This document shows, piece by piece, positions 269 to 61,035 of a stretch of DNA of 64,000 nucleotides. Source of the DNA: Diphasiastrum complanatum (lineage: Eukaryota > Streptophyta > Lycopodiopsida > Lycopodiales > Lycopodiaceae); NCBI GenBank assembly GCA_029204225.1, contig CM055096.1, positions 33,672,571 through 33,736,570 of the forward strand, read 5' to 3'. Both the position numbers and the translations under genes were made by a program. Numbering within the stretch: position 1 is the first letter of the stretch; each line of letters starts with the position of its first letter. Under the pieces are notes generated by a model. That model ran no database searches, was not told the DNA's origin, and saw nothing but the letters and a program-made list of their open reading frames with translations.

Positions 269-3200
269 GTAAGTGTGTAGGTTTGGCTGCTCTAAAGAGA
301 TGTTCAACGGTTTAACAAAAAAGATTTGTTAGCATTTTCTCAAGTAAGATGTTCCAGAGACGAATAAAAACACGACATAGAAGAGCTTCAGGAGAGAACT
401 ACTATTTTGTCATTAAGTTATGAAGTTGAGAAGTAGGATGGTATAAGGTATCTGTTAAAAGAAATGAAACTTCTCCTTTCACGTTGGAACATAGAATTGT
501 GTTCTGAAGCGTAAATTGCTTGATTGAGTTGATTATGCAAAATATTTGCTGTAGTTTATCAAAAAGCATGCGATAGTATAAAGATATATCAAATACTAAA
601 TTTCTTTTTTGTAGCATATGATAAACGTCTGTTTACAACTGCCCTCCAGACTCCATTCAAATCTGTTGTGTCCCTAATTTGGAGTCTTTTTTTATGAAAG
701 CTTGAAGAAAATGATTCTCATATTGCTAGCTGTGTGTTGGGAGTTACTTTGAATGACGTGCTTGCTACTAATTTTTGTTCTTGGCCTCAGAATGAGTCTA
801 GGAACAAATTCTCACTCTGCAACTTCATCAGTGGCAGGCGTTGAGTTTCATTAGATTAAGAAAGTGATGACCTTATACAGCTTTTCTGGTCAATACTTGG
901 AGAAAAAGGCTAGATGAAGACAGAAAAATGGGATAAACCTGCAAGAGCATGTTGTAATCAACACCTAGATACACAGAAGGAAATAAGTGGAAATCTGACA
1001 GTAACAAAAACCAATTTTCTAAATTTTCAGCTGATGGTAGCTTTGTTTTGAAAATATTATGCATTTGAAGGACTGCAGGCAGGATGTAATTTGCTGTCCT
1101 TTTGTGAGTGTCCCGTGCTTTTATTATGTGTATTTTTACACCTTCTGACAAACTGCCTCTTCCTGAGCATTGCTATCATATAGACCTGATCAATGTAGAC
1201 GTAGTATGTATCCATGTTCTCTCACAATGTCCAAATCACTTTCTTTGTCCCTTTGAACTCAAAGTGTCTAACCGCAAGCACAATCATGAATGATGCTGCA
1301 CATTTTATTATCAGCACCTTTTAGTTGTCCAGATTATGTCAGATCATATCCTGCTCTGTAGTCTGGGGGATTCTGGGTTTGAATCTCAGACTGAAAATGG
1401 GTGATGAGATAATCAATTTACAAGTGAATCAGCTATTATGGCTTATTCAGATGTCATGTTTGCCTTTCTACAAGCTTTTAGACTAGTTTCGCTTCTATGT
1501 TTCCTTCTCTTGACCCTTTTACGGCAATGTTCATTTTCAAGAAAATCTTAAAATTATTCATCACTGCAGTGATGTCAACTGATGGAGAAACAAGTGCAGT
1601 TATGAAGGGAATCACACATGGTGCTTGTGACTATCTATTAAAACCTGTTCGATTAGAAGAACTGAAAAACATATGGCAGCATGTTGTACGAAAGAGGAGG
1701 AATGAGGGCAAGGATGTAGAGCATTCTGCCAGCATTGAGGACAATGAAAGAAGTAAGAGGTTTATCGAAGATAATGAGCAGATTGGCCCTTTAATTTCAA
1801 AGAAGAGAAAAGATGTGAAGGAAGAGGACGACGACAATGATCAGGAAACAGATGACCCTACGGCCCCGAAGAAAGCTAGGGTTGTGTGGTCTGTGGAACT
1901 CCATCAACAATTTGTCGGTGCTGTCAATCAGCTGGGAATTGACAGTAAGTGCCTTGTACTGAAAGAATCTTTCTCATTAACTATGCTAATACATAGGTCC
2001 TGTTTCAGATTATAAAGCAGAGTTTTCTCAAACTATCTTGGTCTGCTCTTTAAGTTTCAAACTTTGCTGCATTTATGCAAAAATATCTCTTGATGGAGCT
2101 TAGCACTTACATTTTCGTGATAAATGTTGGAGTATGATTCTTTTCTTAGAGCATCTGTTACAATTTAGTGCATCACAAAGCTTTATATGATAGATGCTCT
2201 CAGTCCGATAGGTTACTAAATGTTACGTAGCAGGATAGTGAAATCACTGAAATGGTTCATCTTTTAAGGGGAAATCTGTCTATTCTCTGATACAAATTTA
2301 TCTTATTTTTGTCTGATGATTCAAAACTCTTAAAAACTGATTTGTCACGTCTTTGCCACAGAGGCAGTCCCAAAGAGAATACTTGAACTGATGGGAGTCC
2401 AAGGTCTTACGAGAGAGAATGTAGCAAGCCATTTACAGGTACCACCATCTCCTCTTGTGCTTCTGGAAAATCCGAAACATTTAAGTAGTTATGTGCTGAT
2501 TTATGACTGCTACTAACTTCATAATTTGCATGCTTTCAAAATTAGACTATCTTCTGTTCTTGCTATCTATTTATAGTTATGTTCACCTTATATGTAGTTT
2601 TGCATTGATGCATATGTTCAATCACCATCTAAACATGACTCAACAACTCCTTCAGAAGTATCGCTTATTCTTGAAAAGGCTCAGTGTTGCTCCGCATCAC
2701 AATCCTGTCAACCTACCTTTTTCTGGAGGCCAGGAATCGTCTGGAACTAATGATCTACGCTCTCTTACAACATCTGGTCATTTATCAGCACAAGCTTTGG
2801 CATCTGTTCATTCAGGCATTCCAGGCACTCTTGACAGTTCAGTTTGGTTACAATTAGCTGCACTCCAAGGTAGCAACTATGGTTCTGTAAGACAAAGGCC
2901 GCAGACACCATGGTTAAATGCTCAAGGAAACATTGTTCAGGCTCTTTCTGGAGGGGTTGATATAGATCACGTTGCTCAAACACAGCAAATAGCTGCTCTT
3001 GGTCAACAAGGCCTTTTGGTAGATAATTCAGCAGGAAAGAACTCAATGCAGAATCAGGTTTCTTTAAATCAACTTGGAAGAATGAGGTCTATGGCAAGCA
3101 TTGGGGATAGCGATTTTGATATTACAGGTAGCACTGCTTTGATGAGGCATCTGCTACATCAACACCAAGTTCAGAACAAAAGTGTTGTAGGCCCAAATTT

Positions 3201-6200
3201 ACCTGTGGGCACATTTTCAGGGCAAAACATGATTCCAGTAGAGATCAACTCTCATGTAGTTCAGTTGCCTAAAACTGGCAGCGCGAATTCTTGTTTCAGC
3301 AGCCAAGCTGGGAGTCTAGATCTAAGTTCTAGTGGTATGATTCCTGACAGTTGCATAGGCGTCAGGGGGTCTTCTGTTTCTCATGAGCTAGATAGCTTTC
3401 TAATCGCTTCCAATGCTGATAGCAAAAGCCACTGTTTATCAGGTGCTGATTTTCAAGCTATAAATGGTACGTATGCAAACACCCAAGTAGCTCCGACTGG
3501 CTTAACTGCTGCTGTGACTGAGTCGGGTACTCACCTTGTTAGCGTGAATGACAACTACAATTTACAGGCTATTGGGGGACCCAGGCCAAACTTCAGTGTC
3601 CTAGGAAATCTTAGTTGCAGAATCGGACCAGGCAGGCAGCCGAGGAGCTCAGGGTGGCAATGTCAAAATGCTGTTCAAGATCCTGTACAACCTTCACATC
3701 CCTTCGAAAGTACTTTCCATAGCCAAATCCTCAATGCAAATCAAGATATGAGTACTGTTTTTGGACAAAATCAAGAAGAGTACTTTGAGCTCCCAAGACC
3801 TGGTTTGGATTTCCCGAGGAATGCAGAGAGTAGTTATTCTAGACCTCCATTCAAAAGTACGTGTACAAAAATAGAGCAAGCCATTACAGAAAGTAATCAT
3901 AAACCAAAGGAAGAGTGGATGTTAGACTCTGCAAGCAAGAAGTTAGAAAGTGCAGTATCTATGTTCAGGGATTCATCGTCAGATGACCTAATGACACTCT
4001 TTATGAAGCAGGTATGACTGCTATTCTTTAGAAATAAATTTACTGAAGGAAAACTGTGGTTTACTCATTTCTTTCTAACTTGGTGATTCGTCAGTGGAGT
4101 AAATATTATTCACGTGTCTTGAAGTTGGCACAATCTATAACCAACTCAAGTGTAATTTGGTGTGCTTATTCATCTAGCAATGATAGACTGCCTTGCTTCT
4201 GATCTAGATAAGCTACATCATTGTTGGAAAAGTAACTGTCACTCTTTTATTAGTTTTTGTACCTTGTACTGCATATATGTTTGGAAGCCTTAATTCAGGG
4301 AAATCCGAATTGTTATCCAAAAGGACCACCTTGTTAAGCCAAAGTCTAATGAGATAATGCAGTAGCTCAATAGCACCCCTACCTTCTTGAAGTTTATCTA
4401 TGTTAATCATAGTGATCAGGGAGCGGGAACGTGTTCCAAAATGAGAACAAAAACATCCCCGAGAAAATGGAAATGGTAATAGGAAGCTAGAACAGGAATG
4501 CCAAGTTGACATAGTAACGTATTGTAAATACATATACATACACAAAAGAACTTCAAATATTTACATATTTTATTTTGGAGTTACACATTGTCACTCAAAT
4601 AATGAGTAGTGTATTTTGGTAGGCGCAGTATTTTCGTGCAAAGCTACCCTCTCACATATTGTGGATCTTTGTGCACTCCTAGTTGGTCAATCTTTAGAGT
4701 GTGTCAAATGCTTTTTAAAAGTCCCAAAAGGCTATTGATGAATACTTTGTCTCGCTTTTGAAACAGCTCTCAATGTGATCAAACAATACATTCTGGAATT
4801 CTTTCTTCGAAATTTTACATGTTCTAAACATAACCCTTATAGATTCCAACAAATTACTGTGTTTTTTTCCAGTTTATTTCCCATAGCTTTTCCAAAGTAT
4901 GTTCCCATCATGATGGTCCTATAGTTGGAGTGATTGTCCTCTCAAACATGCCTTTCGACCACTTATTGGGGAACATCTTTCAAAAGTAAATCACATGATT
5001 CTTCATTGTAAAAGAGCTACCACTTCTTTTTCATCTTTTATTAGTTTTTTTAAGCTTTCTTCCACATTTCCGTTACACTAATTTTTTTCTCTTGTGTGTA
5101 GGCTTGTCTCTTCCTCTTCTTTGCTTATGATAAAGCTTTGTTGCTTCCACCCTATTGACACTATGTTTGATCCTACTTCAGGCTCTTTGCATTTTTGGTC
5201 AGATCAAGTATTTTATCGAACTGCCCCCTTCTATGCTCGCTGAAATTGAAGGATTTTTCCATGCTTAAAATGATTGCTTTTCTAGAACCTTAATATTTGG
5301 GTTGTCATTGGCCGTGGGTTCGTGGTATAGTTGTAGGTTGTCTGCTAAGTATGTGGTATGTTTTTGTTGCTTGGCAGAGCAATTGGATCTTGACATAGTG
5401 GCGGCAATTTTCACATTAAACTTCAACAGAAATGGGTAGTGGTCTGATTTTAGATAAAGAGATCCCACTTTTGTATTTACAATAAAATAAGCGCCTTGAA
5501 GGAGGCTAAGCATATAATCTACCATCCTTTCCCCTTTCATGAATGAGCCAGTAGGTCATCGTCATAGAGCATTACAAGTACGAGATTCATGTGCAGTATC
5601 CACTGTTCTTAATTCCTTGCCAAAGTGTGTAATAGTGGTCAACATTTCTTAGACAAGCTTCTCTAGGTTGATGCGGGCAGTGAAAAATTCCACTAACCAA
5701 GGCGAGTTTCTTGCAACATCATATAGTATCAATTGTTCACACCCTGTTTTGTCAATGAAGTCGCTCGCTCATCAATATGAACTTTCCTTGTTTGAATTAG
5801 CAATGCCTTCGAGCTCAAATCATCAAATATCCTCACTATATGAATTCTTGTACTCGTAAAAGGTGAAGACTTTTGAAGTAAAAGGTCATATTGCTAGGAA
5901 GATTTTGTGCTACTTTGTCTCAGTTTTCATTTCAACATGTTGATCCTTTAGCCTTTGGATCATATTTGCCAACCTTAATTTGTTGTCAAGCAAATTGTGA
6001 ACATAGCAGAACTGCTATAGTAGTAACCTTTACGTTCAATGCTAAGTAAAGATGGTAACTATCGGTTTTTGATAGCTTATATGCTTTGAAGGAGGCTAGG
6101 GCCAAACTTAGAAGCTTTGTGCAAAAGGGATCATTCAATAAGTATGTGCTATAATTGAGAGGATCATATAGCCGTACTTTTTAGATACTAGCGGCTATGA

Positions 6201-9200
6201 AGGTGGAATATTCTATCCATAATTCAAAGAGAAAGCACATGAAGCATCAGTTGGAGTTGGCTGATGAAAGCTAGGACTTAAGAAAGGCTATCACTTTAGC
6301 CAAGAGGATGGAGTGTAACTTGGGTTTCCAAAAAAGGGGAAATTTCTTAGGAACAAGGACAAAAGATAAAAGAAGATGGATGATACCAGGAAGAGTCGTA
6401 AGGGCAAAAACCAAAACAATATCAACTTAAATGTAGGAATCCAGAATCAAGACTATTCATTAACACAAAGTATTCTCAAAGAGAAGAGAGAGATGGTTAG
6501 ATGACCCTCTTGTAGAAACTTGTGGACAGCCAATATGAACAGTAGATTGCTTAACAAAAGTGTGTCTCATACAAATGAATGGCTACATATAAGTAGTCCA
6601 AGATGGCTATCTACGTTCATGACTGTTTGCTGTCCAATAACTTAACTAATGGCTATCTAGCTACCATAAGTTACATAAAATAATCAAGTACCCCGAATAA
6701 CAAGTTAGGTACTTAATTCACATGTATAGGCCCTTGGTGGACCCACGAGTCCCTACAAGTTAGTTTCATACTAACTTGGGCCTAAAATATAAATGACCAT
6801 GGTTACACAGATCTCGACCTTTTGGGTCATAGTAACCTATGGCTTTTACATCATTTACATTTATTATTCTAACACCCTTCTTAAATGAAAATGACATGTA
6901 GAAATGACATGTATTCACTAAGTAAGAAAATCAGCATGTTGCTTTAAATTTAAAGCTTCACAAAGAGCTTTAAATCGAACTCTAGGCAATGCCTTAGTGA
7001 ACACATCTGCAATATTATCCTCCGTGGGACAATATTCAAGCGTGATGTCGCCATTATGAAGCTTCTCCCGAACAAAGTGATAGTGGATCTCGATATGCTT
7101 TGTTCTTGCATGAAATATTGGATTTCGTGCAATGGCAATGGCACTTTGACTATCCGTAAATAGGAAAGTAGCTGAGGGCTGGCCATGCTTCATATCGACA
7201 AGTAATTGTCTCAGCCATATACACTCCGTAGTGGCTGAAAACGTTGCTCTATATTCTGCTTCACTTGAGGATGTAGCAACGGTGGGCTACTTCTTGCTTA
7301 GCCAAGAAACTGCAGAATTTCCAATGAAAAAGCAATGACCACTAGTAGAGCGTCTAGTGTCTTGATCTCCACCCCAATCCGAGTCACAAAAACCAGCCAA
7401 ACATGCATCATCACTAGAAGGATAAAACAGACCAAGTGTTTTACTTCCTTGAAGATATCAAAGGATCCTCTTCAATGCTTTCCAATGTGATGTCAACGGA
7501 GCATGCATGAATTGACTCATGAGGGAAACACTATAAGATATGTCTGGTCTTGAGTTGCATAAGTAAATGAGACTTCCAACCGCTTGACAATATAGTGTAG
7601 TATCAAATGGTTCACCACCACTTTGATTACTTAACTTCAGGCCCGTCTCAATTGGTGTAGCAACTGGCTTGCAATCTTCCATTTTGAAACGCTTCAAAAT
7701 CTGCTCAATGTACCGTTGTTGGGTAATGAAGATTCCAGCCTTTCCTTGCAAAAACTCAAGACCAAGGTAGAAATGCAATTGGCCTAACCCTATGAATGAT
7801 ATATAACCTATCTAGAGTAGCCTACACACGTGGCAACATGGATTCACATGCGTGGAACCCACCTATGTACGAATTTACATGGTCAACTCTGTTTGTTGGA
7901 TAAATGAATACTTTAGAAGTGTCTTAAAAATTTAGTTACAAACAAAAAACTTTTGAGACTCTAATAGAGAATGATGTCCATGAAGAATCTTTCACCACCT
8001 CTTAAAAGATCCCTTACAAGTTGTTCCATAAATGTGTCTATATACAGGTAGCACACTTCAAAACTATACATCATACCAAGCTATGAATTTCAAGGCATCT
8101 TGTGCACTTGATGGTATACCAATTAAGTTATTAGGTGCATAAATAATGTTGCCAAATTCAACTTGCCTTGCTTGATTCATATGGGTGAGCCTTGATGGCT
8201 CCATCAAATGATGATGATAAACTCAGATGTATGCATGACATAAAGCGTAGATTCACTAGGACTGTTAGAAAACCCACGATCACAAAAGTATGTGTGTATC
8301 TTTTGATACCACATCCTTGGGGGAACCGCTTCTCTGAAAAGAAGACTCGTGCCTCATCTAAATCAGTAGAATTTGCTGATTTTTCTGATTTTGCTCTTAC
8401 ATCTATTGAGGATAGTGCAATAGAACCTGTTTTTTATGAGCAAGCCAGAGGAGTAAAATGTTGGGAGGACGCGATGAAAGAAGAGTATGACTCACTCATA
8501 AAGAACCAAACATGGGTTCTTGTTGATCTTCCACATGGTAGAAAGCAATTGGCTGTAAATAGGTTTATAAGATCAAGTACAAGTCCGATGGTACTGTTGA
8601 AAGGTACAGGGCAAGACTTGTTGCCAAAGGTTATGCGCAAAAGGAGGGATTGATTATGAGAAAACTTTTGCACCTACCGCACGAATAACTACCGTAAGGA
8701 TAGTCACTGCTTTGGCTGCCCATCATGGTTGGCGTATGCACCAACTTGACATAAAGTCAGCCTTCCTCAATGGTGATCTTAATGAGGAAGTTTACCTTCA
8801 GCAACCTGCTGGTTTTTTGGTTGCAGGTCAAGAAGACAAAGTGTGTCTTCTCAAGAAGGCTCTCTATGGACTAAAACAAGACTTTGTTGTCCTGCAAAGT
8901 CTGCAACAGCCATTTAGGGACTAGTTTAGGCTGTCCAACAACCTTACTTTGATCAACGCTTTGCTGTCCAAAGTGATCTGAATTGCCAACACTTTGCTGT
9001 CCAAAGTGCTTTGAAATTGGACTATGCTGTCCAAAGTTTTCAACAGGCCGTTCCTCTTCATAAATCTGCTCCTCTTGATGAATTATGGGTTGTTCGCTTG
9101 AAGAACTAGTGGGCTGTCCATTAGAGGATGATGGCAGTCCCTCCTCTTCAACATTAGATGGTGATACCAAATCATACCAAACTTCATAAGGAGTCAAAAT

Positions 9201-52130: not shown

Positions 52131-52169
52131 AACTCAATCCTGCCACAAGGAAGGACCATCATCCTCTGC
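52131..52169 (+). pseudogene. Gypsy RT fragment, left half (split by the LTR array)
   Basis: Encodes KLNPATRKDHH and the next codons of a Ty3/Gypsy RT (Y-R-x-L-N...T-x-K-x-x-x-P-L-P-F region). The frame is cut at tctgc by the element starting at 52170 and resumes at 60916. Confidence 0.8.
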
Positions 52170-53378
52170 TGTTGTAAAGCTACCTTTACAAGCTTTACTT
52201 CCGGCGCCATCAGCGCCAGCTATGTCCCCGGCGCCAGCAGCGCCCCTGCTGCTCCCGGCGCCACTGTGACCAGAATCCAGCCGGCGCCAAGTTCCTATGG
52301 CTGAAAATCTTTGATCGGTTCTAGCGGAGTCCAGATCGATGTGCAATCACCTCACATGATCTAGGCACGATTAAAGGAAGCCTGGGGATCAATAAAATCT
52401 AGAGAGAGAAAATGACTTTCTAGAAAGAGAAAATCCTAGAGAGAGAAAAACGTGCTTTACCAGCTTGGGTAGAGTGCTTGGTATGAGGGGGGTGCCGAAT
52501 CACACCAATACTATAGGGGAGTGCGGGTTGCGACTCAGGGCGAGCTCCAACCAAGTCTCAGCCACCCTTGCTGGAATGTTGTCATGGCTCTCGCCTTGGC
52601 ATGCTAGCGCCCCGGAGACTAGGGTCGGTCACACACTTGAAATGTAACCTTCTCAGATTTATCAATAAAGTGGGATTTTCCTCAAACTGACTCTGATTAC
52701 CTTCTGGGTTTCAGTGTTCGGTAAAAGCGCCAGTTGTAAGGCCGCTTTCAAAATTTTTAACTTGGCACATAGCTGAGGGTCGTATCCCGGGACGCCAGCG
52801 GTATGCCGTCGGGACCATTCCGTCCGTGACGCCAGCGGTATGCTGTCGGGACCATTTGGTCCAGGAACTGGTTGTTTCCATATCTGTCGCGGCTTGTGGT
52901 TCTGAGTGTTCCTTGCATGAACGTGAATGGGTTAAGCTCTTGGGGAACGGGCTCTAACCTGTCGGCTGAGTTGGATGGCTTGCTTGGGTGGATGTTACCT
53001 GTTTATGGCTGTCCAGTCTGGCGTGGCGCCAGGTTGGCTTCCAGCGCTCGTGACGAAGCTTTCAGTTGGTTAAGTCTGATGTAAGTCAGACCGCTTGCTT
53101 GGAATGGATGTTACTCGTTTGTAACGAAGCTTCGAGTTGGTTAAGTTTGATGTATGTCGGGCGGCTTGCTTGGAGGGAAGTCACCCACATCGGGACCCCC
53201 GATCTGGCATGGCGCCAGGTTGGATCTCAATGTTGGTTTTCGGAACTTCAAGTTGGTTAAGTCTGATCGTTGTTGGCGAGTTGGCTGCTTGTATGTCAAG
53301 TGGGTTTTGGATGGCAAGAGTTGAAGGCTGGGAAGCTAAGTCGTGGTTCCCGGCCCCCTTTGGGATGCCTGCGCTACA
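52170..53378 (+). repeat. LTR 1 of the array
   Basis: 1209 bp, TG...CA. GGCGCC-rich start, two AATAAA signals (atcaataaaatc ~52390, atcaataaagtgg ~52663), and a 38-bp near-tandem repeat (gacgccagcggtatgcygtc, 52792 and ~52830). The 3' part repeats gttggttaagt(c/t)tgat. Shorter than LTR 2 and 3 because part of the GGCGCC block is missing. Confidence 0.9.
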
Positions 53379-53380
53379 TG

Positions 53381-53393
53381 TGGTATCAGAGCC
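53381..53393 (+). other. Primer binding site, first internal domain
   Basis: tggtatcagagcc, two bases after the LTR end, complementary to initiator tRNA-Met. The second internal domain has the same site at 57101-57113. Confidence 0.9.
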
Positions 53394-53468
53394 GACTGGC
53401 CGGTCAGCTATGCGGATCTCACGGAAATGGCTACGGTTTGAGGTTCATCAAGACAACTGTTGTGCAAG

Positions 53469-53856
53469 GTGCTGCCCACAGTGTAAGCACGGGTGCGTCC
53501 ACGGTCGGGGTGGTCGGCAGAACGGGGGACTTGATGAGTCAAAGTGCTGCCCTTGAGGTGTAAGCACGGTCAGTTCTCGCGGTTCGGGCCTGGCGCTGTC
53601 TGCACGTAGGACAGATGAGGCAGTGTGCTGCCATTAGGTTGGTGTAAGCACGGTCTGTGCCTTGTGGGGTGCGGGGCGACATATTTGAACTGTACGGGTT
53701 AACCATTGATACAGAGATGCTGCTCGAATTCGGGTGTAAAGCACGGGTGGTTAGCTGCTGGTGCGGGATAGCTGCCGATCGTTTAGCTATAAGGGCTATC
53801 GACCAAAAAGTGGTGGGGCGTGATTGAGGCAATGTGCTGCTTAATGGTGAAAGCAC
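53469..53856 (+). repeat. Five iterated GTGCT...AGCAC stem-loops in the leader (copy 1)
   Basis: Stem-loops at 53469-53490, 53544-53567, 53625-53651, 53717-53744 and 53834-53856. Each has gtgctg(c) or atgctgc, a variable 8-17-base centre usually ending ggtgtaa, then agcacgg. They start ~75 bp after the primer site. Spacing is 75-117 bp. Confidence 0.85.
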
Positions 53857-54132
53857 GGATAGTTGGAGGGGTGTCCTATGTGGGCTGATTCCGTGATCGA
53901 TTTGTATGGGCGCGGCCAGGCAAAGGTCCGTTGGCAGGACCATCTCAAAGGGGGACCTTGTCTTTGTTACTTGTTAGTAAACCTGCCTGAGTGTCTTACT
54001 TGTACGTATTCGTGGTGAGTCTTAGTACTCGTGCTTTGCCTGGTTTGCATGATTGCTTGTGATACAAGGAGCTGATGGCTCGAGAAGGAACCTTTTCTTT
54101 TGAAGGCTGATACCATCAAACAAAGAGGACTA

Positions 54133-54632
54133 CAGAATCTGTGGGGCGGATTTGCAGTTCAAGTACTCACACGTGAACGACAACGAAACGACTCAATGTT
54201 TGCAAAGGATGGATGGCTAGCCTGTCTCTTGGGTTAGTTTCATTTGCGACAACGCCCACCAGATGCAAGCAGGAAGTCAAAAGTTGGAAAGGGCCATTTC
54301 AGGGGAGATCTTCTATGGAACAGTTGGTCTTCATTTTGGGGCCACCTTCAGAACTGAAACTCACTGAGCATGGGCGATATCCAGAATCTGTGCGGCGGAT
54401 TTGCAGTTCAAGTACTCGCACGTGAACGAAAACGAAATGACTCAATGTTTGCAAAGGATGGATGGCTAGCCTGTTTCTTGGGTTAGTTTCATTTGCAACA
54501 ACGCCCACCAGACGCAAGCAGGAAGTCAAAAGTTGGAAAGGGCAATTTCAGGGGAGATCTTCTATAGCAGATGGTCTTCATTTTGGGACGGCCACCTTCG
54601 GAACTGAAACTCACTGAGCATGGGTGATATCC
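54133..54632 (+). repeat. 249-bp tandem duplication in internal domain 1
   Basis: The unit starting cagaatctgtg.ggcggatttg and containing caatgtttgcaaaggatgga and caggggagatcttctat occurs at 54133 and 54382. The same duplication is at 57834-58337 in the second domain (period 252), so it predates the array. Confidence 0.92.
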
Positions 54633-55751
54633 AGTATCAGTTGGGTTTTTCCTCAAAGGGGAAAAGACTAGGATCCTCTTCAGAGATTGGCAACAAGTTG
54701 GATCAAGCCATAATCCTAGCAGATGGGAAGCAAAGTGTTGGAAAGGCTTTTTGTCCGAAGAACTCTACTCTAAGTCCGATCAGCTGATTTACTAAGTGGA
54801 GGGGAACTATCACACACACCTCTCTCTTGGGGCAAATTTTGAATGAAAGTTGATCAAAATGGGGGCAAATTCAAGGTGACCTAGCCATACTCACACGAGG
54901 AGACTGGCGAACTTTGGACCTAATAAGTTGACAAGTTTTTGTTGTGGAAAGAAAAGTTTGTTATAGGCTTTCTCTAGATCAGCAATGATGAGAAAACATA
55001 TGAGTACGCTGGCTTGTGTTACGTGTAAGACAACTGATCAATGAAGGAACTATGAAAGTTGAGTCTTGCATGAGAGACTTGGTATTTCGAACGGACGCTA
55101 AGGGACAGTTCGCGTTGAGATCGGACTAGTGCAAACTCTGGGTGCATGTGTCTGATTCAAAGAGAGCTACTTGAAGCCAAGCTCGATGTACACTTCTTGT
55201 TTTGACTGTGAGGCAACTGACCAATGATGGAATTGTGAAAGTCAAGTTTTGCACGATGGACATGGTGCTTCAAACAAATGCGAAGAGATAGTTCGGATGC
55301 GGATCAAACTGGTGCGACCCTTTGGCATTCCACAAGGTCAATGGTTACATTTGGGCTGATTCAAAGAGCTACTTCAAGCTAAGTGAGAGGTGCATTGCGG
55401 AGTACTCAATCTTTGCCTACCTTAAAGAGCCAAGATGGAAAAGTATCAAGATCAGGCTGGGACAAGGAGAGAAATCAAGGTGCAGAAGCAACAAGGCACG
55501 GAGTGGACCATAAAGTGGGCAATCAAACGATAAATCCTTCGCCTCAGGGAGCCTTGATACCTGTGCGGAACTGAACAAATCTGGAGCTCAGGGAGCTCAA
55601 CACAAAGTGCATCAAGGACAAATCAGGAGCTCAAAGGAGTTCCAAAGTCGAAAGTCAGAAGCGACAGGGGCCTACATTTCAAAGAAAGGCCTCTGTCACC
55701 AGTTAATAAGGTTCTCGGGTTTTACGAAAGCGATATCAAATCTACGCTTTT

Positions 55752-55857
55752 TGTAGCGCAGGCATCCCAAAGGGAGCCGGGAACCACGACTTAGCTTCCC
55801 AGCCTTCAACTCTTGCCATCCAAACCCACTTGACATACAAGCAGCCAACTCGCCAAC
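55752..55857 (-). repeat. Inverted 106-bp LTR 3' end abutting LTR 2
   Basis: Exact reverse-orientation copy of the last 106 bp of the LTR (tgtagcgcaggcatcccaaa ... agttggcgag reversed), placed directly before the TG of LTR 2. It replaces the 3' end of the first internal domain. Confidence 0.92.
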
Positions 55858-57098
55858 TGTTGTAAAGCTACCTTTACAAGCTTTACTTCCGGCGCCATCG
55901 GTGCCATTTATGTCCCCGGCGCCAGCAGCGCCCCTGCTGCTCCCGGCGCCAACGGCGCCGGCGCCGCTCCCGGCGCCACTGTGACCAGAATCCAGCCGAC
56001 GCCAAGTTCCTATGGCTGAAAATCTTTGATCGGTTCTAGCGAAGTCCAGAGAGCTCAGATCGATGTGCAATCACCTCACATGATCTAGGCACGATTAAAG
56101 GAAGCCTGGGGATCAATAAAATCTAGAGAGAGAAAATGACTTTCTAGAAAGAGAAAATCCTAGAGAGAGAAAAACGTGCTTTACCAGCTTGGGTAGAGTG
56201 CTTGGTATGAGGGGGGTGCCGAATCACACCAATACTATAGGGGAGTGCGGTTGCGACTCAGGGCGAGCTCCAACCAAGTCTCAGCCCCCCTTGCTGGAAT
56301 GTTGTCATGGCTCGCCTTGGCATGCTAGCGCCCCGGAGACTAGGGTCGGTCACACACTTGAAATGTAACCTTCTCAGATTTATCAATAAAGTGGGATTTT
56401 CCTCAAACTGACTCTGATTACCTTCTGGGTTTCAGTGTTCGGTAAAAGCGCCAGTTGTAAGGCCGCTTTCAAAATTTTTAACTTGGCACATAGCTGAGGG
56501 TCGTATCCCGGGACGCCAGCGGTATGCCGTCGAGACCATTCGGTCCGTGGCGCCAACGGTATGCTGTCAGGACCATTTGGTCCAGGAACTGATTGTTTCC
56601 ATATCTGTCGCGGCTTGTGGTTCTGAGTGTTCCTTGCATGAACGTGAATGGGTTAAGCTCTTGGGGAACGGGCTCTAACCTGTCGGCTGAGTTGGATGGC
56701 TTGCTTGGGTGGATGTTACCTGTTTATGGCTGTCCAATCTGGCGTGGCGCCAGGTTGACTTCCAGCGCTCGTGACGAAGCTATCAGTTGGTTAAGTCTGA
56801 TGTAAGTCAGACCGCTTGCTTGGAATGAATGTTACTCGTTTGTAACGAAGCTTCGAGTTGGTTAAGTTTGATGTATGTCGGGCGGCTTGCTTGGAGGGAA
56901 GTCACCCACGTCGAGACCCCCGATCTGGCATGGCGCCAGGTTGGATCTCAATGTTGGTTTGCGGAACTTCAAGTTGGTTAACTCTGATCGTTGTTGGCGA
57001 GTTGGCTGCTTGTATGTCAAGTGGGTTTGGATGGCAAGAGTTGAAGGCTGGGAAGCTAAGTTGTGGTTCCCGGCTCCCTTTGGGATGCCTGCGCTACA
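55858..57098 (+). repeat. LTR 2 of the array
   Basis: 1241 bp, same ends as LTR 1; it has the extra GGCGCC units and agagctcag absent from LTR 1. Followed by tg and a primer site. Confidence 0.9.
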
Positions 57099-59669
57099 TG
57101 TGGTATCAGAGCCGACTGGCCGGTCAGCTATGCGGATCTCACGGAAATGGCCACGGTTTGGGGTTCATCAAGACAACTGTTGTGCAAGGTGCTGCCCACA
57201 GTGTAAGCACGGGTGCGTCCACGGTCGGGGTGGTCGGCAGAACGGGGGACTTGATGAGTCAAGGTGCTGCCCTTGAGGTGTAAGCACGGTCAGTTCTCGC
57301 GGTTCGGGCCTGGCGTTGTCTGCACGTAGGACGGATGAGGCAAAGTGCTGCCTAGGGAGGTGAAAGCACGGTCTGTGCCTTGTGGGGTGCGGGGCGACAT
57401 ATTCGAACTGTACGGGTTAACCATTGATACAGAGATGCTGCTCGAATTCGGGTGTAAAGCACGGGTGGTTAGCTGCCGATCGTTTAGCTATAAGGGCTAT
57501 CGACCAAAAAGTGGTGGGGCGTGATTGAGGCAATGTGCTGCTTAATGGTGAAAGCACGGATAGTTGGAGGGGTGTCCTATGTGGGCTGATTCCGTGATCG
57601 ATTTGTATGGGCGCGGCCAGGCAAAGGTCCGTTGGCAGGACCATCTCAAAGGGGGACCTTGTCTTTGTTACTTGTTAGTAAACCTACCTGAGTGTCTTAC
57701 TTGTACGTATTCGTGGTTAGTCTTAGTACTCGTGCTTTGCCTGGTTTGCATGATTGCTTGTGATACAAGGAGCTGATGGCTCGAGAAGGAACCTTTTCTT
57801 TTGAAGGCTGATACCATCAAACAAAGAGGACTACAGAATCTGTGGGGCGGATTTGCAGTTCAAGTACTCACACGTGAACGACAACGAAACGACTCAATGT
57901 TTGCAAAGGATGGATGGCTAGCCTGTTTCTTAGGTTAGTTTCATTTGCGACAACGCCCACCAGACGCAAGCAGGAAGTCAAAAGTTGGAAAGGGCCATTT
58001 CAGGGGAGATCTTCTATGGAGCAGTTGGTCTTCATTTTGGGACGGCCACCTTCAGAACTGAAACTCACTGAGCATGGGCGATATCCAGAATCTGTGCGGC
58101 GGATTTGCAGTTCAAGTACTCGCACGTGAACGACAACGAAATGACTCAATGTTTGCAAAGGATGGATGGCTAGCCTGTTTCTTGGGTTAGTTTCATTTGC
58201 GACAACGCCCACCAGACGCAAGTAGGAAGTCGAAAGTTGGAAAGGGCAATTTCAGGGGAGATCTTCTATAGCAGATGGTCTTCATTTTGGGACGGCCACC
58301 TTCGGAACTGAAACTCACTGAGCATGGGTGATATCCAGTATCAGTTGGGTTTTTCCTCAAAGGGGAAAAGACTAGGATCCTCTTCAGAGATTGGCAACAA
58401 GTTGGATCGAGCCATAATCCTAGCAGATGGGAAGCAAAGTGTTGGAAAGGCTTTTTGTCCGAAGAACTCTACTCTAAGTCCGATCAGCTGATTTATTAAG
58501 TGGAGGGGAACTATCACACACACCTCTCTCTTGGGGCAAATTTTGAATGAAAGTTGATCAAAATGGGGGCAAATTCAAGGTGACCTAGCCATACTCACAC
58601 GAGGAGACTGGCGAACTTTGGACCTAATAAGTTGACAAGTTTTTGTTGTGGAAAGAAAAGTTTGTTATAGGCTTTCTCTAGATCAGCAATGATGAGAAAA
58701 CATATGAGTACGCTGGCTTGTGTTACGTGTAAGGCAGCTGATCAATGAAGGAACTGTGAAAGTTGAGTCTTGCATGAGAGACTTGGTATTTCGAACGGAC
58801 GCTAAGGGACAGTTCGCGTTGAGATCGGATTAGTGCAAACTCTGGGTGCATATTTCTGATTCAAAGAGAGCTACTTGAAGCCAAGCTCGATGTACACTTC
58901 TTGTTTTGACTGTGAGGCAACTAACCAGTGATGGAATTGTGAAAGTCAAGTTTTGCGCGACGGACATGGTGCTTCAAACAAACGCGAAGAGATAGTTCGG
59001 ATGCGGATCAAACTGGTGCGACCCTTTGGCTTTCCACGAGGTCAATGGTTACATTTGGGCTAATTCAAAGAGCTACTTCAAGCTAAGTGAGAGGTGCATT
59101 GCGAAGTACTCAATCTTTGCCTACCTTAAAGAGCCAAGATGGAAAAGTATCAAGATCAGGCTTAGACAAGGAGAGAAATCAAGGTGCAGAAGCAACAAGG
59201 CACGGAGTGGACCATAAAGTGGGCAATCAAACGATTAATCCTTCGGCTCAAGGAGCCTTGATACCTGTGCGGAACTGAACAAATCTGGAGCTCAGGGAGC
59301 TCAACACAAAGTGCATCAAGGACAAATCAGGAGCTCAAAGGAGTTCCAAAGTCGAAAGTCAGAAGCGACAGGGGCGAACATTTCAAAGAAAGGCCTCTGT
59401 CACCAGTTAATAAGGTTCTCGGGTTTTACGAAAGCGATATCAAATCTACGCTTTTCCCAGACAAAGATATATTTTCAAGTTATGTGATTTTCAGTACAAA
59501 GAGCTGAGCCTCCAACTTGTGGTGTGCCAGCTTCAATGTTAATAAAAAGTGGCCAGTAAATTGAGTACTGTGCCAAGTAGCTTAAATGTATAGTTATTTT
59601 GATTGGGAGACACCTTTACTTTAATCTGACATCTGATGAGGACATCAGATTTTATAAAGGTGGGGTGGA
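57099..59669 (+). other. Second internal domain, non-coding, with complete 3' end
   Basis: Parallels the first domain to 59456, then adds 213 bp (cccagacaaagatatatttt ... ) ending in the polypurine tract. No retroelement protein motifs. Five leader stem-loops at 57189-57210, 57264-57287, 57345-57369, 57435-57462 and 57535-57557. Confidence 0.85.
59656..59669 (+). other. Polypurine tract
   Basis: aaaggtggggtgga directly before TGTTGTAAAG of LTR 3; the usual second-strand priming site. Absent before LTR 2. Confidence 0.88.
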
Positions 59670-60915
59670 TGTTGTAAAGCTACCTTTACAAGCTTTACTT
59701 CCGGCGCCATCGGCGCCAGCTATGTCCCCGGCGCCAGCAGCGCCCCTGCTGCTCCCTGCGCCAACGGCGCCGACGCCGCTCCCGGCGCCACTGTGACTAG
59801 AATCCAGTCGGCGCCAAGTTCCTATGGCTGAAAATCTTTGATCGGTTCTAGTGGAGTCCAGAGAGCTCAGGTCGATGTGCAATCACCTCACACGATCTAG
59901 GCATGATTAAAGGAAGCCTGGGGATCAGTAAAATCTAGAGAGAGAAAATGACTTTCTAGAAAGAGAAAATTCTAGAGAGAGAAAAACGTGCTTTATCAGC
60001 TTGGGTAGAGTGCTTGGTATGAGGGGGGGTGCCGAATCACACCAATACTATAGGGGAGTGCGGGTTGCGACTCAGGGCGAGCTCCAACCAAGTCTCAGCC
60101 TCCCTTGCTGGAATGTTGTCATGGCTCTCGCCTTGGCATGCTAGCGCCCCGGAGACTAGGGTCGCTCACACACTTGAAATATAACCTTCTCAGATTTATC
60201 AATAAAGTGGGATTTTCCTCAAACTGACTCTGATTACCTTCTGGGTTTCAGTGTTCGGTAAAAGCGCCAGTTGTAAGGCCGCTTTCAAAATTTTTAACTT
60301 GGCACATAGTTGAGGGTCGTATCCCGGGACGCCAGCGGTATGCCGTCGGGACCATTCGGTCCGTGGCGTCAGCGGTATGCTGTTGGGACCATTTGGTCGA
60401 GGAACTGGTTGTTTCCATATCTGTCACGGCTTGTGGTTCCGAGTGTTCCTTGCATGAATGTGAATGGGTTAAGCTCTTGGGGAACGGGCTCTAACCTGTC
60501 GGCTGAGTTGGATGGCTTGCTTGGGTGGATGTTACCTGTTTATGGCTTTCCAGTCTGGCGTGGCGCCAGGTTGGCTTCCAACGCTCGTGACGAAGCTTTC
60601 AGCTGGTTAAGTCTGATGTAAGTCAGACCGCTTGCTTGGAATGGATGTTACTCGTTTGTAACGAAGCTTCGAGTTGGTTAATTTTGATGTTTGTCAGGCG
60701 GCTTGCTTGGAGGGAAGTCACCCACATCGGGACCCCTGATCTGGCATGGCGCCAGGTTGGATCTCAATGTTGGTTTTCGGAACTTCAAGTTGGTTAAGTC
60801 TGATCGTTGTTGGCGAGTTGGCTGCTTGTATGTCAAGTGGGTTTTGGATGGCAAGAGTTGAAGGCTGGGAAGCTAAGTCGTGGTTCCCGGCCCCCTTTGG
60901 GATGCCTGCGCTACA
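59670..60915 (+). repeat. LTR 3 of the array (true 3' LTR)
   Basis: 1246 bp from TGTTGTAAAG to GCGCTACA, followed at once by the TCTGC duplication and Gypsy RT sequence rather than a primer site. Confidence 0.9.
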
Positions 60916-61035
60916 TCTGCCCTTCACTGATTCCACCTTATATCAGGTTGCTGGTCAAGAGCGTTACAGTTTCTGTGACGGATTTTCTGGATATAATCAG
61001 GTTGGAGTGCGAAAGGAGAATCGTATTATTTTAAT
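60916..61035 (+). pseudogene. Gypsy RT fragment, right half
   Basis: After the array the frame reads PFTDSTLYQVAGQERYSFCD and GFSGYNQVGV, the conserved F-x-D-G-x-S-G-Y-N-Q motif of Ty3/Gypsy RT. It continues the codons cut at 52169. Similarity fades after ~61030. Confidence 0.85.

Follow-up and report, generated by a model that had tools for sequence, protein, structure and literature searches.

A bounded array of five hairpins is common to the leaders of a non-coding LTR element and a gag-encoding family in Diphasiastrum complanatum

The stretch of DNA analysed here (the window) comprises 64,000 nucleotides of the lycopod Diphasiastrum complanatum, positions 33,672,571 to 33,736,570 of contig CM055096.1 in assembly GCA_029204225.1 (1.74 Gb, 5176 contigs). 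It contains the primer binding site (PBS) of plant long terminal repeat (LTR) elements, copia and gypsy fragments and a weak response-regulator match. At 52170-60915 lies a tandem LTR-internal-LTR-internal-LTR element, which is GC-rich relative to its surroundings and carries the target site duplication (TSD) TCTGC on both sides (Table 1). With LTRs, PBS, polypurine tract (PPT), TSD and a 2.57 kb internal domain without protein domains, it has the features of a large retrotransposon derivative (LARD). No stop-to-stop frame of 100 aa was found within 53974-55695 or 57284-59669, and none of the four open reading frames (ORFs) from the LTR and leader stretches matched Pfam. The element is thus LARD-like, encoding nothing recognised and repeated in its genome, in agreement with the initial annotation, made from the sequence alone, which had called it non-coding. 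Its two internal domains differ by 46 substitutions over about 2,354 aligned positions.

Downstream of the PBS, each internal domain carries five short inverted repeats. The pattern TGCTGCN{5,18}AAGCACG occurs ten times in the 64-kb window, with five occurrences in each internal domain, and not once in 100 dinucleotide shuffles, which bears out the repeats described at the outset. Including the closing GG, the array spans 390 nt in copy 1 and 371 nt in copy 2. It starts about 77 nt past the PBS and in copy 1 ends about 466 nt past it; the 390 bp earlier given as a distance from the PBS are therefore right for the span of the array and wrong for the distance. All ten units follow the consensus (A/G)TGCTGC - centre - G(T/A)A(A) - AGCACGG. 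The GTGCT start earlier ascribed to every unit holds for units 1, 2, 3 and 5, so that four of the five units per array have the full 5-bp outer stem; unit 4 reads ATGCT in both copies. The predicted fold of each unit has a 5-bp outer stem (GUGCU/AGCAC) and an inner stem of 2-5 bp that closes a loop of about 4-6 nt; a bulge of 3-4 nt (G(U/A)A) lies on the 3' side, and GG comes after the hairpin. Direct reading and local folds give inner stems GC/GU for unit 1, GCC/GGU for unit 2, GCCA/UGGU or GCCU/AGGU for unit 3, GCUCG/CGGGU for unit 4 and GCU/GGU for unit 5.

When the five units are compared with one another within one element, their 15 arm positions are 91% identical. Likeness among units is 0.36 and 0.46 in the nearest 12 nt outside the arms and, beyond 12 nt, 0.24 upstream and 0.29 downstream versus 0.27 expected. 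With such arms and an outside at random level, the units resemble the remains of old duplications, retained mainly in their hairpin part. Elsewhere in the genome, tandem copies of the unit-5 region are found at three loci (L134, L136 and L138), giving arrays in which the pattern counts six units and the hairpin model eight, with centres CTAACG, CTAATG, CTAATA and TTAATAATG.

The same leader is found behind another LTR (LTR', 916-920 nt) at L129, L130 and L137. LTR' has in common with the window LTR only a stretch of 42 nt at 83%, plus the tips (TGTTGTAAAGCT; GCGC(T/A)ACA). Two elements of this family, L154 and L175, have the order LTR', PBS, five hairpin units, one ORF, purine tract and second LTR'. 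The ORF is 646 aa long in L154 (TSD CCGAC; LTR pair identical at 909/920 positions, 98.8%) and 737 aa in L175 (TSD CCTGT; 920/920, 100%); in both it is intact and encodes Retrotrans_gag and an aspartyl protease, with a CCHC knuckle recognised by direct reading. The same five units therefore precede gag behind an otherwise unrelated LTR, the kind of partner that the initial annotation had anticipated. By the rule stated in the accessible part of PMC6022998, under which TR-GAG elements have GAG, or GAG and AP (aspartyl protease), only, both of the elements read are TR-GAG. At L130, LTR' lies partly inside the reading frame of gag, which explains the sequence before the gag frame. The TSDs and near-identical LTR pairs indicate that the gag family moved recently; of four further elements checked, L135, L137 and L139 also have TSDs and L142 has none, and both families are mobile. 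A search with the LTR' end plus leader gave 3174 first-look candidates, 40 of which were scored, all 99-100% identical; the 12 places used, all matching the query to 99% or more, represent few lineages.

LTR' is also found inserted in LTRs of the LARD family, as a lone LTR' in L136 and as whole elements in L154 and L175, which may reflect either target preference or simple abundance. Inside LTR' itself, weak matches to the hairpin model (14.5-15.3 bits; GTGCTTTCT(A/G)GTAAAGCAC) occur at L130:5796-5829 and alike in L131, L133, L136 and L137. They adjoin the only stretch that LTR' has in common with the LARD LTR and may represent a related hairpin close to the promoter or R region.

The part common to the two families is sharply bounded. 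A leader search gave 2850 first-look candidates, of which 40 were scored (97-100% identical) and 20 taken; two of these, L157 and L163, were dropped from the comparison for lack of the PBS string. When 20 LARD leaders are compared with 17 LTR' leaders, 14/70 positions before the array, 0/397 inside it and 12/75 after it have no letter in common. In a first, pattern-chosen set (14 LARD and 4 LTR' leaders; majority rule), there are 15 differences before the array, none inside and 17 after, the nearest outside lying at 53463, 6 nt ahead of the first arm, and at 53861, 3 nt beyond the last unit's GG. The expanded arrays of L134, L136 and L138 and partial copies were left out of this comparison, as of those of the biased set and of L131-L133 given below. 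Because the edges coincide with the first and last hairpin, we describe the array as a discrete module common to non-coding and Gag-encoding elements. Seven of the 397 columns differ in majority letter between the families, none of them fixed, and for the single pair W1 and L175 10/397 positions differ in the array (3/134 inside hairpins) compared to 31/149 in the flanks. In a tree of the leaders the four LTR' rows group together with full support, so the LARD and LTR' families are separate lineages. Against this background the array was either exchanged or held identical.

Unit 3 adds a marker that crosses the families. Inside the unit the two window copies differ by 3 substitutions and a gap of 2 nt, and just before it by 2 further substitutions. 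Among the 20 LARD leaders, 12 carry CATTAGGTTGGTGTA, 7 CTAGGGAGGTGAA and one CTAGGTAGGTGAA; these two common allele types account for the difference between the window copies, so that the difference in the centre pointed out earlier is real and goes back to a polymorphism found throughout the family (12 versus 8 of 20 copies) and not to an event in the window. ATTAGG-type alleles occur in 12/20 LARD and 2/17 LTR' leaders, the latter two both from the first, pattern-chosen set, and the allele found once among the LARDs is present in 14/17 LTR' leaders. A unit-3 allele is therefore common to both families.

Recombination between the two kinds is seen in three near-identical chimeras (L131-L133) within 180 kb on C13, at about 1.47, 1.55 and 1.64 Mb. 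One side consists of a LARD-like LTR (88%), leader and internal sequence; the other has protease, reverse transcriptase (RT), integrase, chromodomain, purine tract and, at the 3' end, LTR'. Since LARD parts are joined here to a pol region and LTR', the two kinds recombine, and pol-bearing relatives exist. We rejected these loci as the autonomous partner: no gag was found in them, and their LARD sequence continues as far as the protease region.

Across genome copies the outer stems are rarely broken. Outer pairs of units 1, 2, 3 and 5 are kept in 398/400 cases in the 20 LARD leaders and in 340/340 in the 17 partner leaders; for unit 4 the counts are 83/100 and 65/85. In 21 copies not chosen by their hairpins, 105/105, 104/105, 104/105, 87/105 and 105/105 outer pairs are kept in units 1 to 5. 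A second set of 21 is biased: L129-L146 are 18 of 75 places found by the pattern and picked by eye as look-alikes, and because the pattern fixes unit 3, arm counts for that unit are biased in it.

We consider it probable that the array is a cis-acting module of the 5' leader RNA in a small Ty3/gypsy-type group, most likely serving recognition, packaging and/or dimerisation by Gag. An element without ORFs would keep only its needs in cis, namely the LTR tips for integrase, the PBS, the PPT and, most distinctively, the array. The array would be a multivalent Gag site for packaging and/or dimerisation, LARD RNA would enter particles made by the gag-protease (LTR') family, and template switching between co-packaged RNAs may keep the array common to both families. 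The earlier interpretation of the repeats as a parasitic packaging signal is in this way partly supported.

The position of the array would also suit another RNA-level role in the leader. In L154 and L175 it lies between the PBS and the gag ATG (in L175, PBS at about 983, units at 1072-1459, ATG at 1814), where it might act in the start of reverse transcription or strand transfer, in RNA stability or export, or in ribosome handling before gag; such leaders commonly hold several signals, as the accessible text of PMC4974528 has it for Ty1/Ty3. We regard such a role as unlikely. Pure translation control is not expected to persist in a non-coding element, and a role in gag translation would not explain why a LARD, which has no ORF, retains the array; moreover, the presence of five near-identical units points to a binding site in several copies more than to a single structural element.

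Much of what is set out in this and the next two paragraphs weighs against recognition of the array by Gag as a folded RNA. The leader as a whole is no more stable than shuffled sequence in either copy (z -0.53 and -0.37; equalled or exceeded in stability by 31 and 37 of 100 shuffles), contrary to expectation. Folded alone, six window and five partner units are nearly ordinary (z from +1.33 to -1.81), and for the best of these eleven units, the third of copy 2, 9/200 shuffles do as well or better. The lowest-energy fold lacks the inner stem in unit 1 and the outer stem in unit 4 of copy 1; in favour of the structure, the lowest-energy local fold contains the expected hairpin in 4/5 partner units. 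As for compensatory changes, none of the pairs of the model structure shows a two-sided change in an 8-row alignment (2 rows with assumed flanks), in which the outer stems are invariant and therefore silent on covariation. Inner-stem pairing in 16 recurrent centres is better than in shuffled centres (sum 18 versus 10.2, p 0.018) but not significantly better than with exchanged halves (p 0.16; p 0.30 for all 25 centres). The unit-3 alleles, by direct reading and folds, keep four inner pairs with A-U swapped for U-A; given the exchanged-halves control, this remains a single suggestive case.

Arm sequence conserved without covariation is also what a feature acting at the DNA level would give, such as dyad-symmetric sites for transcription or chromatin factors, or a recombination-prone repeat; the tandem gain of units in L134, L136 and L138 fits as well. 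We find this improbable, because the array follows the PBS, in the transcribed leader and outside the LTR, and because keeping four inner pairs through an A-U/U-A swap would be needless for DNA binding, though this is one case. Loop self-complementarity, examined post hoc, gave p 0.0037 for partner alleles, p 0.46 for LARD alleles and p 0.26 for all; kissing loops were set aside as a lead only, since palindromic loops are striking in partner units 2, 3 and 4 and not in the LARD alleles.

Conservation among copies gives a mixed answer to the refuting condition set at the outset, namely stems disrupted as often as loops. In the 21 copies not chosen by their hairpins, minority letters make up 0.86% of arm and 1.62% of spacer cells, a difference with only p 0.07 (independence of columns or cells is assumed in all Fisher p values). 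Loops of units 1, 2, 4 and 5, at 0.77%, are as conserved as the stems, and the inner GC plus bulge vary more than the spacers (12/525 cells, 2.29%, versus 93/5733), a count to which the one bulge position that differs between unit-3 alleles contributes. The biased set gives 2.1% for arms and 1.6% for loops and bulges of units 1, 2, 4 and 5, and there the inner GC (5.4%) is no better than the spacers (4.9%). Stems kept and loops free, as first proposed, thus holds between units and for unit 3 only. In the comparison of the two families the array spacers are as identical as the hairpins, so that recent exchange alone could give 0/397 without selection on hairpins. The array might then have no function, being old hitch-hiking tandem repeats kept alike among families by recent recombination, in keeping also with an inner GC and bulge that vary no less than the spacers (the inner GC likewise in the biased set). 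We nevertheless hold this to be very unlikely. Within an element the sequence between the five units is at random level while the arms are 91% identical. In L131-L133, near-copies of one lineage with two of the three leaders identical, columns differing from the LARDs number 17/264 in spacers, 3/44 in loops and 1/10 in the GG, versus 0/80 in arms, inner GC and bulge, although the tests of hairpin against spacer conservation reach only p 0.052 and 0.083. As this lineage shows that spacers can change, the identity of the spacers between families favours exchange.

Finally, the partner copies read (L154, L175) both lack RT and integrase, which a third element must therefore provide, and no full gag-pol copy with the array leader was found among the loci examined. 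It is quite possible, though somewhat less likely than not, that a three-tier community of non-coding, gag-protease and pol-bearing chromovirus lineages is joined by one exchangeable leader cassette with clean edges, which recombination would carry between families with unrelated LTRs, and that unit number (five, or more where the array is expanded) and unit-3 allele serve as a packaging code common to parasite and helper.

Table 1. Features of the tandem LTR element and of the module common to both families (window coordinates)
Feature	Position	Strand	Remark
TSD TCTGC, left	52165..52169	.	read directly; matches 60916-60920
LTR 1 (TGTTGTAAAG...GCGCTACA)	52170..53378	+	self-comparison and sequence
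Internal domain 1, non-coding, 3' end (PPT) missing	53379..55751	+	
PBS TGGTATCAGAGC, copy 1	53381..53392	+	
Shared module, 397 nt	53464..53860	+	0 positions without shared letter, 20 LARD versus 17 gag-family leaders
Hairpin unit 1, copy 1	53469..53490	+	
Hairpin unit 2, copy 1	53544..53567	+	
Hairpin unit 3, copy 1, allele CATTAGGTTGGTGTA	53625..53651	+	
Hairpin unit 4, copy 1, outermost pair A.C	53717..53744	+	weak model score, 17 bits
Hairpin unit 5, copy 1	53834..53856	+	
Inverted 106-nt copy of LTR 3' end, replacing PPT region of internal domain 1	55752..55857	-	
LTR 2	55858..57098	+	
Internal domain 2, complete form	57099..59669	+	whole length also in L135, L139, L142
PBS, copy 2	57101..57112	+	
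Hairpin array, copy 2	57189..57557	+	units 57189-57210, 57264-57287, 57345-57369 (allele CTAGGGAGGTGAA), 57435-57462, 57535-57557
PPT AAAGGTGGGGTGGA	59656..59669	+	read directly
LTR 3	59670..60915	+	
TSD TCTGC, right	60916..60920	.	read directly

Other features of the element concern its rearrangements and repeats. The inverted piece of LTR 3' end is placed exactly at the start of LTR 2. In L129, L136 and L137, inverted pieces of about 210-223 nt from the LTR 3' end are likewise found directly next to LTR or internal sequence; those of L129 and L137 border an LTR' insertion. Self-integration and aberrant plus-strand priming are candidate origins of the window piece. Each internal domain also contains a tandem duplication of about 250 bp (54133-54638 and 57834-58342; 93-95% alike), and a 27-nt GC-rich repeat of the CCGGCGCCAGCAGCGCC type is found near each LTR start (52201-52263, 55915-55978 and 59727-59790).

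Elsewhere in the window, the other PBS-like sites (11777 on the minus strand, 15848 and 63301) have no array, the only model match being a 10-bit chance match at 7120, and Rfam gave no match in the window at gathering score. At 1482-4017 lie a response-regulator-like ORF, with a weak Pfam match below the cut-off, and a following ORF, which together are perhaps, as we presume, a type-B cytokinin response regulator gene. Viral contigs were rejected as carriers of the array: their matches are chance matches, the doubles among the matches listed being overlapping TGCTGCTGC 3 nt apart, and none of the 128 loci read (at least 120 stretches with a two-unit pattern and 8 others) has two separate units.

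For plant elements without genes, accounts of how they are copied usually appeal to a lack of alternatives. In the present case the common part is narrowed to a 397-nt cassette that stands beside an intact gag ORF in the partner and comes with natural unit-3 alleles, so that what Gag recognises in the RNA of a parasite becomes directly testable by binding and probing.

The nearest precedents are Ty1/Ty3 and the BARE1/BARE2 pair of barley, whose members we take to be nearly full-length. BARE2 is without its own Gag, and its RNA is packaged in BARE1 particles, with dimerisation and packaging signals conserved (PMC3735527, accessible part). Our non-coding element would likewise be a parasite without its own Gag using the particles of a partner, as far as sequence alone can tell; in contrast to this Copia pair, it has no recognised coding region, the LTRs differ and a bounded hairpin array is common. 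In Ty1/Ty3, cis-acting packaging and dimerisation signals are found in the first several hundred nt of the RNA; the accessible text of PMC4974528 mentions no iterated near-identical hairpins, whereas here there are five or more units. The accessible part of PMC12786077 adds nothing on packaging signals. In the literature searched, as far as its text was accessible and with subscription papers outside its scope, no hairpin array common to a LARD and a gag-only family is described. LARDs resemble the window element in their LTRs, PBS, PPT, TSD, internal domain of more than 2 kb without recognised coding and many copies, and are said to specify well-conserved RNA structures (PMC7215508); the difference is a defined array of iterated hairpins, common to a gag-encoding family, of which the accessible text of that paper has none. 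Compared with TR-GAG elements, the gag-only family described here differs in that a non-coding family with an otherwise unrelated LTR has the same leader. The parts are each of a known kind, and what is new is the bounded, exchanged hairpin cassette.

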